A stretch of 64,000 nt of DNA from Nitrososphaerales archaeon (GTDB taxonomy: Archaea > Thermoproteota > Nitrososphaeria > Nitrososphaerales > Gagatemarchaeaceae). Below the pieces are notes generated by a model. It was given only the letters and a program-made list of their open reading frames with translations, did not search any database and had not been told where the DNA came from. Position 1 is the first letter of the stretch. Each line of letters begins with the position of its first letter. The stretch is taken from assembly GCA_030038395.1 (NCBI GenBank), contig JASHOZ010000025.1:1-64000 (forward strand), written 5' to 3'. A program made the position numbers and the translations under genes. Of this stretch, positions 35,999 through 39,460 are shown piece after piece.

Positions 35999-36070
35999 CG
36001 GCGCGCCTTTTTCGGTCGGCCCCGCCAAAACTTATAACCACAATTGGGCCGGTTCGGCGCGTCCTTCCTA

Positions 36071-36709
36071 ATGTATTCGGGTGTACTGGCCGCCACTCCA
36101 CCCACCGTAGCTACATGGACAAGGGTCTACGACGTGTACCTGACGCTCGGAGTCGGGACAGCGGTCGTGGTCATATCGGCTCTCCTGTACGCTGTCGTGC
36201 GCTACAGGTCTCGGGGCCAGAAGGAGCCGGTGCAGGGAGCTAAGCAGCACGGGTGGAAGGCAGTGCTCGCCATAGTGCTTGTCATGGGGGTCATACTGGC
36301 GATCGCCGGCTCCCAGACTTTTGCAGGGTTCACGAACATCGAGATCCCCAACTCCCCAGGCACCGTGACCGTTAGCGTCACTGGATTCAGGTGGGGGTGG
36401 AACTTCACCTACCCCGACGGCCAGTACGTCATAGGCGATCTGACGGTCCCGGTCAACACGATCGTGATTCTGAACATAACCAGCAGCGACGTCTACCATA
36501 CGTTCGGCATCGCGATGCTGGACGTCAAGGAGGACGCGATCCCCGGTAAGGTCAACCAGCTCTGGTTCAACATGACTGAGATGGGGAACTACACCGACGC
36601 AATCAGGTGCTACCAGCTCTGCGGCGTGGGGCACGCCTTCATGATCGCCAACCTTACGGTGGTCAGCCAGTCGCAGTGGAACGCCACGTTCGGAGCGCAG
36701 AAGGGGTGA
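36071..36709 (+). CDS. coxB: Heme-copper oxidase subunit II (CuA)
   Basis: This 212-residue protein has two N-terminal membrane helices (about 18-38 and 58-80) and a periplasmic-type cupredoxin domain. The CuA site is complete: His in VYHTFG, then CYQLCGVGHAFM, which supplies both Cys, the second His and the Met, and a DVKEDAIPG loop. It accepts electrons from an outer donor, here most likely a blue copper protein, and passes them to subunit I. The ATG at 36071 follows a TATA-like CTTATAACC by about 36 bases. The next gene starts six bases after its stop. Confidence 0.93.
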   Translation: MYSGVLAATPPTVATWTRVYDVYLTLGVGTAVVVISALLYAVVRYRSRGQKEPVQGAKQHGWKAVLAIVLVMGVILAIAGSQTFAGFTNIEIPNSPGTVTVSVTGFRWGWNFTYPDGQYVIGDLTVPVNTIVILNITSSDVYHTFGIAMLDVKEDAIPGKVNQLWFNMTEMGNYTDAIRCYQLCGVGHAFMIANLTVVSQSQWNATFGAQKG

Positions 36710-36714
36710 CCTGA

Positions 36715-39192
36715 CTGGGCACAAAAGAGTGGCTGAAGCACTGGCTCTTCACCACAGACCACAAGCAGGTCGGCCTGCTATACATGTTCACCGCGCTCTA
36801 CTTCGGCGTTGTAGGGGCGGTGCTCGCGCTCCTCATGCGCGTCCAGCTGTCAGTCCCCAACAACGACTTCCTGGAAGCCGCATACTACAACCAGGCGGTC
36901 ACGATGCACGGGCTGATAATGATCTTCTGGTTCCTCTCCCCCTTGGGGGTCGCGCTCTTCAACTACCTGGTCCCGCTCCAGATCGGCGCCAAGGACCTCG
37001 CCTTCCCGAGGCTCAACGCCCTCACCTATTGGCTCTTCCTAGCCGGCGGCCTCATGGCGGTCTTGAGCTTCTTCGTCCCTGGAGGGGCGGCCGCAGCAGG
37101 CTGGACCTCGTACGAACCGCTCGCAGGGCCGGTCTACTCGCCTGGCCCAGGCCCCACCATGACCTACCTCGGTTTGATGCTCATGGCTGCGTCGGTGACC
37201 GTGGGGAGCGTGAACTTCATCGCCACCATCCTGTGGCTACGCAGGCCCGGGATGAGACTCTCGGACATGCCGATGTTCAGCTGGTTCGCGCTGTTCACAG
37301 TAGTGGCGATGCTCTTCGCGTTCCCCTCGATAATCGCCGCCTTCCTTCTCGTCCTCACTGACAGGCTCATCGGGACGGTGCTCTACGCGCCGCCCTCCAT
37401 ACTCAACGTCCCCGGAATCGACCCTTCACTCCTCTGGGACGACCTCTTCTGGTTCTTCGGGCACCCTGAGGTGTACATAGTCCTGCTCCCGGCCTTCGGG
37501 GTGATCGCCGACATCACGCCGGCCTTCACCGGCCGCCCGCTGGACGGCAGGAACTGGATTCTCATCTCTGTGGCCGCGATAGTGCTGCCCATCAGCTTCG
37601 GCGTCTGGATGCATCACATGTTCCTGACCGGCATCCCCAACGTCCTGCTGGAGGTCTTCGACGTCTCTACAGAGATCGTCTCGATTCCATTCGGCATAAT
37701 AGTGATAATGTTCATCCTGTCCATGGTCCACGGGCGCATCCAGTTCAAGACGCCGCTCCTCTTCATAGTCGGGGCGCTCGTCCTCTTCATAATCGGGGGG
37801 ATAATGGGGGTCTTCCTCTCGTCGCCTGTCCTTGACCGGGTGTACAACGGCTCCTACTTCGTGGTGTCGCACTTCCACTACGTGATGGTCGGCGCAACGA
37901 TCTTCGGCCTATTCGCCGGCATCTACTACTGGCTCCCCAAGATGACTGGGAGGATGTACAACGAGTCCCTCGGGAAGGTGCACTTCATCATCTCATTCAT
38001 CGGCTTCAACGTCCTCTACGCGCCTATGATGCTGCTGAGCGACATGCCTAGACGCATCTTCACGTACCAGAACATAGGCGACTGGGCCCAGCTCAACGGC
38101 ATAGCGACGGTGGGTGCGTTCATCTTCGCGGGCGCGCAGATAATCGTGGCATACAACCTCCTGCACACATGGTTCCGCGGGCCGCCTTCGGGGCCCAACC
38201 CGTGGGGATCGCAGAGCCCCGAGTGGTCTACCCCCGCGACGGGGAGCGTCCCAGTCGCTCCAGTAGAGACGGAGCCGGCTGGAGGATGGATCGGGCAGCT
38301 GCCAGGTCCTCAGTCCGCCTCCGTCAGCGGGCCGTCCCCCGTGTCGCACGCGATGTCGGCGGTCTCCCACGAAGTCCACCTCAGCAGCAGGCCGCTCACC
38401 CTGTCAGCCGGAGTGATGCTGTTCCTGACGGGGGCCGCCCTCTATCCAGGCGGCGCCATCCAGCTGTCGGTCCTTACCATACCGCCAGGAGTCTTCCCGC
38501 TAGCGCTGATGGTCCTCGGGGTCGGAGTATTCGCCGCGTCCATCGTCGGATGGGCGTGGGACGACATCCGCAACAAATTCGTCGGTCCGGCAGGGGACCC
38601 TGGAGGCGACAGGTGGCCGTACGACGAAGTCCCGAAGATGAAGCTCGGGATGTGGGTCTTCCTCTCCTCCGAGATCGTCCTGTTCGGGACTCTGCTGGGC
38701 GCCTACATCTTCATCCGCGAAGCGGCCTTGGAGTGGCCCTCCCCGGCGTCGGTGCACGACATACCCTTGGCCACCGCGAACACGTTGATCCTGCTCACGA
38801 GCGGGTTCACCATGGCCATGGCGGTCTACGCGATCCGAAAGGGCGACCAGCGCGGCCTCCTCGGCTGGCTCGTGGCCACCTTCGTCCTCGGCTCGACGTT
38901 CATCGGGGTCAAGATCTCAGAGTGGCTCGGGCTCTTCTCCGGCGCGGCGCCGTTCCTCCCCAGCTCGTCGAACCCGGTCACCGCGCTGGCGGCGAGCATA
39001 TACTACGTCGTGGTCGGCCTGCACGGGGCGCACGTCGTCGCAGGCCTCGTGGTGCTGGTGTACCTGATGAAGAAAACTGCCCGCGGTGGATTCACGAAGG
39101 ACGACCACATGTCCATAGAGAACTTCGCCCTCTACTGGGCGTTCGTCGAGATAGTGTGGTGCTTTGTGTTCCCGCTCTTCTACCTGCTTTGA
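36715..39192 (+). CDS. coxA: Fused heme-copper oxidase subunits I+III, CTG start
   Basis: This protein of about 825 residues has subunit I in residues 1-500, with heme and CuB ligands in MHGLIMIFW, HPEVYIVLLPAFG (His-Tyr cross-link pair), HHMF and HFHYVMVG. Subunit III lies at about 550-825 (KLGMWVFLSSEIVLFG and LHGAHVVAG). The conserved N-terminal WLFTTDHKQVGLLY lies upstream of the first ATG (36784), and the only upstream start candidates are CTG codons. CTG 36715 has GGTGA five bases before it. HPEVY with Glu and Tyr indicates an A-type proton-pumping oxidase. Subunit fusion of this kind is known in archaea. Confidence 0.92.
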   Translation: MGTKEWLKHWLFTTDHKQVGLLYMFTALYFGVVGAVLALLMRVQLSVPNNDFLEAAYYNQAVTMHGLIMIFWFLSPLGVALFNYLVPLQIGAKDLAFPRLNALTYWLFLAGGLMAVLSFFVPGGAAAAGWTSYEPLAGPVYSPGPGPTMTYLGLMLMAASVTVGSVNFIATILWLRRPGMRLSDMPMFSWFALFTVVAMLFAFPSIIAAFLLVLTDRLIGTVLYAPPSILNVPGIDPSLLWDDLFWFFGHPEVYIVLLPAFGVIADITPAFTGRPLDGRNWILISVAAIVLPISFGVWMHHMFLTGIPNVLLEVFDVSTEIVSIPFGIIVIMFILSMVHGRIQFKTPLLFIVGALVLFIIGGIMGVFLSSPVLDRVYNGSYFVVSHFHYVMVGATIFGLFAGIYYWLPKMTGRMYNESLGKVHFIISFIGFNVLYAPMMLLSDMPRRIFTYQNIGDWAQLNGIATVGAFIFAGAQIIVAYNLLHTWFRGPPSGPNPWGSQSPEWSTPATGSVPVAPVETEPAGGWIGQLPGPQSASVSGPSPVSHAMSAVSHEVHLSSRPLTLSAGVMLFLTGAALYPGGAIQLSVLTIPPGVFPLALMVLGVGVFAASIVGWAWDDIRNKFVGPAGDPGGDRWPYDEVPKMKLGMWVFLSSEIVLFGTLLGAYIFIREAALEWPSPASVHDIPLATANTLILLTSGFTMAMAVYAIRKGDQRGLLGWLVATFVLGSTFIGVKISEWLGLFSGAAPFLPSSSNPVTALAASIYYVVVGLHGAHVVAGLVVLVYLMKKTARGGFTKDDHMSIENFALYWAFVEIVWCFVFPLFYLL

Positions 39193-39202
39193 GTGAGGAG
39201 AG

Positions 39203-39460
39203 ATGAAGACTTCCACAATAGCGGGCGTCTGGGCGTACATGGTCGTCGCTGTACTCACGGAGACCGCCACGTTCTACTACGTCACCAACGTTACCGCGCA
39301 GACGGTCGTCATCTCCCTGTTGGCGCTGAGCCAGGCGACGGCCGTGGCCATATTCTACATGCAGCTGAAGGACGAGCCGGGGTCGATCAGGATATTCGCG
39401 CTGGTCGGTGTCATGTTCCTCTCCGCTCTCCTTATAGCGATGGTGGCGTCGCTGGGGTGA
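39203..39460 (+). CDS. Cytochrome c oxidase subunit IV-like protein
   Basis: This 85-residue protein has three membrane helices (about 5-25, 32-52 and 62-84) and a short YMQLKDEPGS loop, the layout of prokaryotic COX subunit IV. The ATG has a strong Shine-Dalgarno sequence (GAGGAGAG). It sits 10 bases after the fused subunit I+III gene and overlaps or abuts the start of the cupredoxin gene. Its role is likely structural stabilisation of the oxidase complex. Confidence 0.8.
   Translation: MKTSTIAGVWAYMVVAVLTETATFYYVTNVTAQTVVISLLALSQATAVAIFYMQLKDEPGSIRIFALVGVMFLSALLIAMVASLG

Follow-up and report, generated by a model that had tools for sequence, protein, structure and literature searches.

A CTG codon very probably serves as start of the archaeal oxidase gene coxAC, with near-cognate CTG and ACG starts predicted for further genes of its relatives

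Within the window, i.e., the whole stretch of 64,000 nucleotides that was analyzed, the gene coxB is followed by coxAC and by a gene for a small protein (Table 1). The COX1 and COX3 domains were identified by means of Pfam in a single frame, characterizing the coxAC product as a haem-copper oxidase subunit I+III. Only one coxA-like match was obtained in the whole genome of this soil archaeon (1,486,398 bases), which is a draft of 69 contigs and is referred to as G000. Direct reading of the sequence showed that coxB ends with the codons AAG GGG TGA. In the coxA frame, GTG (36706), ACC and the stop codon TGA (36712-36714) are followed by CTG (36715) GGC ACA AAA GAG TGG CTG AAG CAC TGG, and the frame continues with CTC TTC ACC ACA GAC CAC AAG CAG GTC GGC CTG CTA TAC ATG (36784). 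The CTG codon is set 5 bases downstream of the end of GGTGA and of the coxB stop. Every codon between the in-frame TGA and ATG 36784 was checked, and neither ATG nor GTG nor TTG was found among them.

Table 1. Features of the coxB-coxAC junction and its surroundings in the window
Feature	Position	Strand	Support or remark
coxB (oxidase subunit II)	36044..36709	+	start per ORF tool; stop TGA 36707-36709; Pfam COX2 E 8e-16
GGTGA, core of the Shine-Dalgarno sequence, overlaps the coxB stop; the stretch that pairs is GAAGGGGUGACCU	36705..36709	+	-15.2 kcal/mol for the duplex with the genome's 16S tail
TGA stop in the coxA frame, directly 5' of CTG	36712..36714	+	TAG at the equivalent place in G019, G021, G018, G001
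CTG, inferred coxA start codon	36715..36717	+	homologous codon ATG, TTG, ACG, ACG in four sister species
Codons for WLFTTDHKQVGLLY, conserved subunit I N-terminal block, 5' of first ATG	36742..36783	+	translation, solved-structure alignment, relatives
First in-frame ATG, codon 24; start under ATG/GTG/TTG-only ORF calling	36784..36786	+	
coxAC, fused subunits I + III, 825 aa from CTG	36715..39192 (stop included)	+	Pfam COX1 E 1.1e-130, COX3 E 1.7e-19; open frame
Small subunit IV-like protein (COX4_pro), 3' of coxAC	39203..39460	+	Pfam E 3.8e-07

The initial annotation had stated that the N-terminal block of subunit I precedes the first ATG, with no ATG, GTG or TTG after the stop, which was confirmed base for base; its placing of CTG directly after the stop and five bases downstream of GGTGA was likewise borne out. 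In order to evaluate the disputed codons upstream of ATG 36784, the window was compared with five relatives. Differences were commonest at third codon positions, amounting to 6, 6 and 13 at the three positions versus G019, and to 2, 3 and 8 versus G015. This third-position excess indicates that the disputed stretch is translated in the coxA frame. Furthermore, the best alignments with solved subunit I structures start at query residue 10 and several others at residues 2-9, ATG 36784 representing residue 24. The WLxTTxHK block, which is common to the relatives and the solved structures, is also encoded upstream of this ATG. Residues lost by a start at ATG 36784 therefore align with solved structures, in agreement with the earlier claim that such a start would delete the start of helix 1 and an invariant motif.

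The genomes sampled comprised 31 members of the window's genus and 46 members of the family, and start regions of coxA were compared for 45 distinct loci (window and relatives). A canonical codon is present ahead of the conserved block in 41 of these regions, in three of them more than 20 codons upstream of the block. The window, G019 (L002) as well as G020 and G011 (L005, L122) are the four loci in which no ATG, GTG or TTG follows the in-frame stop before the conserved W is reached. In the coxA tree, the window forms a clade with G019, G021, G018 and G001 (support 100/99; the row of G001 is partial). All five members share the same layout, namely the coxB TGA, two nucleotides, a stop in the coxA frame (TGA in one member, TAG in four) and the start codon. 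At this one homologous position, CTG was found in the window, ACG in G019 and G021, TTG in G018, and ATG in G001. Terminal branches leading to G001, G018 and G021 are only 0.010-0.020 changes per column long, yet these species start with ATG, TTG and ACG, respectively, so that the clade resembles a mutagenesis experiment carried out by nature on a single start codon.

Since the homologous codon is ATG, TTG or ACG in the sister species, CTG 36715 is assigned as the start of coxA, as the initial annotation had proposed. The N-terminal alignment with relatives, which it had named as a check, points to the same codon position and the same spacing to the coxB stop as the start in the sister species. 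Based on sequence comparison, the support for near-cognate initiation at CTG 36715 is strong, and the CTG start of coxA is very probably real. For G021, an alternative GTG at codon 7 would keep the conserved block, which counts against the ACG start in that species. A second CTG group consisting of G020 and G011 is placed apart from the window's clade (98/92); its coxA start region reads GGAGTGA-ACACMA-CTG-GCT, and the coxB stop overlaps CTG by 8 nt (L005, L122). Outside the family, CTG occurs in L014, L015 and L016 where L018 has GTG. As coxA starts, these codons are suggestive only, because other canonical codons are also kept nearby.

The 3' end of the 16S rRNA encoded in the window's genome reads GGATCACCTCCTT. 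The stretch before CTG pairs with this tail at -15.2 kcal/mol, compared to a mean of -9.6 for 500 shuffles, of which 2.2% were as good. Within the coxA clade, pairing values of -15.2 for CTG, -13.9 and -12.5 for ACG, -10.5 for TTG and -9.4 for ATG were obtained (n = 5). The order, with stronger Shine-Dalgarno pairing where the start codon is weaker, would fit compensation; it is suggestive only, as five related sequences prove little. Pairing above that of shuffles was not found for the THUMP, GtrA-like and 106-aa cases described below or for coxA of G011, and for the tested TRAM-1 cases it was not clearly better than shuffles. Because of the layout of the coxB stop and the following start, we infer that translation of coxA likely begins by termination-reinitiation from coxB. 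In Haloferax volcanii, translational coupling was described for overlapping genes, and the Shine-Dalgarno sequence of the distal cistron matters for reinitiation (Huber et al. 2019, cited in PMC7531240). The Shine-Dalgarno sequence would have a like role at coxB-coxA; near-cognate starts, however, are absent from the Haloferax passage of that review (PMC7531240).

Among 43 genes tested in G000, coxA represents the sole convincing near-cognate case, the TRAM and THUMP genes of this genome starting with ATG. Its TRAM gene is located on contig C44 (69247-69492), just beyond the window. For the family, TRAM matches were obtained in 41 of 46 genomes, and 30 loci were taken (L170-L199), 28 of which were readable. 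Among these 28 loci, which include the one of the one-contig genome G004, the stand-alone TRAM gene has ACG as its start in 21 and ATG in seven, the latter from G000 and from six genomes outside its genus. A canonical codon between stop and ACG is absent in at least eight of the 21 ACG-started loci; in G034, a GTG is located three codons upstream. In the loci read for the second TRAM paralogue, the start codon is TTG or ATG. The TRAM leader is strongly conserved (GCTAGGATGTGAAARG). A conserved hairpin around the TRAM start was not recognizable, since single-sequence folds share no structure.

Outside the family but within the order, 23 of 24 genomes yielded a TRAM match, and 28 of 30 loci taken were parsed. 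In 10 of the 28, distributed over seven families (G048, G049, G051, G052, G047, G060, G037, G053, G038 and G054), ACG follows a Shine-Dalgarno-like stretch at the TRAM start, e.g., AAGGAGGTG-6nt-ACG, and the remaining loci feature ATG, TTG or GTG. No canonical codon precedes the TRAM domain in five of the 28 loci, all of which belong to the ten with ACG; the other five ACG loci have a canonical codon upstream or inside the Shine-Dalgarno sequence. Within L320-L337, ACG was seen behind a near-perfect Shine-Dalgarno sequence, including the one-contig genome G037. TRAM proteins were described as RNA chaperones in archaeal cold shock (PMC5572242, PMC6705878, PMC8576121).

The THUMP-domain gene was matched in 35 of the 46 family genomes, and 29 of 30 loci (L270-L299) were read. 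Counted by eye, its start codon is ACG in 15, ATG in six, GTG in five and TTG in three loci. Nine of the 15 ACG-started copies lack a canonical codon back to the stop, and three (G016, G021, G001) possess a GTG four codons downstream. The threonine codon five codons after the start in the same 15 loci is ACT (7), ACC (4), ACG (3) or ACA (1). Since this nearby codon varies over all four ACN triplets, the ACG of the THUMP gene seems to be fixed as a start and not as a threonine codon.

Orthologous genes in the stretches around coxA were screened in seven family genomes (408 gene copies) and in a comparison set of five genomes of the order, assumed to be ammonia oxidizers or other (108-110 gene copies). 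An initial screen by BLAST start position was rejected; most of its flags were conserved leaders or shadows of upstream genes. After filtering, 32 of the 408 family copies were flagged, which by eye were mostly noise. Cases that were convincing by eye comprise the THUMP gene (ACG in G015 versus ATG in G033), the TRAM-domain gene (ACG), a 161-aa membrane protein (CTG in G019 versus TTG in G015), a GtrA-like protein, labeled from sequence only (CTG in G021 versus ATG in G015 and G019), and, as a firm case, a 106-aa protein (CTG in G019 versus TTG in G021). A stricter swap test, from which genes with a conserved leader (e.g., TRAM) are excluded, flagged seven of 408 copies, the clear CTG swaps by eye being the 106-aa protein (firm) and a HerA-like gene (weak). 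The latter (CTG in G021), the isoaspartyl peptidase (GTA in G002) and a Fap7-like gene (CTG in G015) are weak cases and were not counted as firm. The HerA-like ATPase frame (L156 9410-10408, G021) ends at 332 aa, relatives having 580 or more, and represents a broken gene or an assembly error. In the ammonia-oxidizer comparison stretches, no convincing case was found among the 108-110 genes (one weak flag in the filtered screen, none in the swap test). The contrast between the family (about a dozen of 408) and the comparison set is not strong, since copies are non-independent and the dozen were curated by eye; moreover, TRAM does use ACG in some families of the comparison set.

These results bear on other explanations for the missing canonical start. 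An error of sequencing or assembly that hides an A, G or T at 36715 would be in line with the draft state of the genome (69 contigs) and with ATG and TTG at the codon of CTG 36715 in the sisters G001 and G018. Independent assemblies, however, also lack a canonical codon there (ACG in G019 and G021, CTG in G020 and G011), and 21 genomes of the family share ACG as the TRAM start. An error is therefore regarded as very improbable. Translation from ATG 36784, yielding a protein without the first 23 residues, would make use of the first in-frame ATG, GTG or TTG; against it, the codons upstream are conserved, differ mostly at third positions and encode the WLxTTxHK block, and the 41 coxA start regions mentioned above keep a canonical codon before the block. 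Such a truncated product is deemed extremely improbable. Both explanations are made unlikely by the relatives.

Initiation at GTG 36706 followed by read-through of TGA 36712 is conceivable, as GTG ACC TGA CTG lie in frame and the GTG is also present in G019 and G021. Nevertheless, one clade member has TGA as the stop and the other four have TAG, the GTG is replaced by CTG in G018 and by TTG in G001, and an ordinary start follows the stop in two sisters, leaving this reading next to no probability. Another explanation would be C-to-U RNA editing, converting CTG to UUG and ACG to AUG and thereby creating a canonical start in the message. CTG and ACG are exactly the near-cognate codons that C-to-U editing would repair, and the searched stretches contained no convincing start at ATA, ATC, ATT, AAG or AGG. 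To our knowledge, however, C-to-U editing of mRNA is not known in archaea; CTG and ACG are among the better near-cognate starts elsewhere and also suit a G+C-rich genome, so that editing is hardly to be expected.

It is instead highly probable that CTG 36715 is the true start of coxAC, read by ordinary Met-tRNA and representing one case of the usage of near-cognate CTG and ACG codons in the lineage. Homologous position, coding signature, Shine-Dalgarno sequence and stop arrangement were read from the sequence, and the coupling to coxB and methionine as first residue are deduced. Ribosomes ending coxB at TGA 36707 would remain on the message, and the Shine-Dalgarno sequence overlapping the coxB stop would position the small subunit 5 nt upstream of CTG. 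At this near-cognate codon, the ordinary initiator Met-tRNA (anticodon CAU) would then be accepted, presumably yielding the product Met-GTKEWLKHWLFTTDHK. CTG and ACG starts would represent a habit of the lineage, swapping with ATG, GTG and TTG at the homologous codon of coxA, TRAM, THUMP and a few other genes.

The initiator tRNA of G000 features the usual anticodon loop CTCATAA. An altered initiator anticodon as cause was thus not seen in G000, and near-cognate pairing by the normal Met-tRNA is the simplest reading because the loop is normal. The tRNA gene (contig C15 31700-32000, L165) contains apparent extra insertions, possibly introns, and was missed by ARAGORN. The same program reported no tRNA in the window (1-64000), where intron-bearing tRNAs could therefore be overlooked. 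Loss of aIF1, which proofreads initiation (PMC7531240, section 8), was rejected as cause, as SUI1 was found in 54 of 61 genomes and in 26 of 31 of the genus, including G000. The N-terminal cysteine motif CxxCG...CxC of aIF1 is absent in all 16 family members and present in all 13 other members of the order that were compared; furthermore, ATGG or AAGG replaces the ACGG of the rest of the order in the 16 family proteins read. The start codon of aIF1 itself is apparently GTG in most family members read (L300-L319, L241). Judging from these sequences, an aIF1 without the cysteine motif could relax start selection. It was rejected as sole cause, and cannot be the whole cause, because ACG starts of TRAM also occur outside the family.

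In eukaryotes, near-cognate CUG and ACG starts are used, and infC of E. coli starts with AUU. In a wider reading, to which somewhat less than an even chance is given, ACG and CTG would be regular and selectively kept starts of Nitrososphaerota. The TRAM ACG, found in eight families, would then be a weak, self-regulating start like the infC AUU, and the Gagatemarchaeaceae, whose aIF1 lacks the cysteine motif, would have spread the habit to further genes, coxA and THUMP among them. The regulatory role of the TRAM ACG is likewise deduced, and is put forward as a hypothesis; its parallel to infC is a weak start kept for regulation.

Gene finders restricted to ATG, GTG and TTG truncate or miss genes of this kind: the first 23 residues are cut from coxA, and where no canonical codon precedes the domain in a TRAM copy, part of this domain would be lost. 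Close species having ATG, TTG or ACG at one position provide a ready test of start choice in archaea, and with the same coxA species set it can be tested whether a weak codon is compensated by coupling or by a strong Shine-Dalgarno sequence. If confirmed, ACG initiation would be the first such start codon conserved across archaeal families, as far as the literature search shows. In this search, covering titles and abstract openings, mostly of freely accessible papers, no published ACG-started archaeal gene was recognizable.

For the Gagatemarchaeaceae, a fused coxAC accompanied by coxB and coxD was described, and D- and K-channel residues of an A1-subfamily haem-copper oxidase were stated for the family (PMC10640624). 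These are the same genes as in the window, and the term 'start codon' is absent from that text. A passage of a review names AUG, GUG and UUG as the starts of archaea (PMC7531240). In Ribo-seq data of Methanosarcina mazei, CTG starts 5% of the unannotated sORFs (PMC11456600); that report thus concerns CTG initiation in an archaeon at unannotated small ORFs, whereas large conserved genes are concerned here, known by genome comparison alone. Start switches between closely related, annotated prokaryotes are very rare and were counted as 2/61,358 for AUG to CUG, 1/5,080 for GUG to CUG and 1/2,468 for UUG to CUG (PMC5622118). The comparative logic is the same, but genome triplets of close relatives were used there and switches were far rarer; ACG as a word is absent from the main text of that study.

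As in near-cognate initiation elsewhere, the codons considered here are one base off AUG, and the initiator Met-tRNA is the presumed reader. In contrast to the eukaryotic and infC cases, they occur in archaea, at a core respiratory gene and two genes for RNA-binding domains, with ACG kept across many species. Near-cognate initiation is known in kind; that these archaea conserve it at coxA, TRAM and THUMP seems to be a new form of it.
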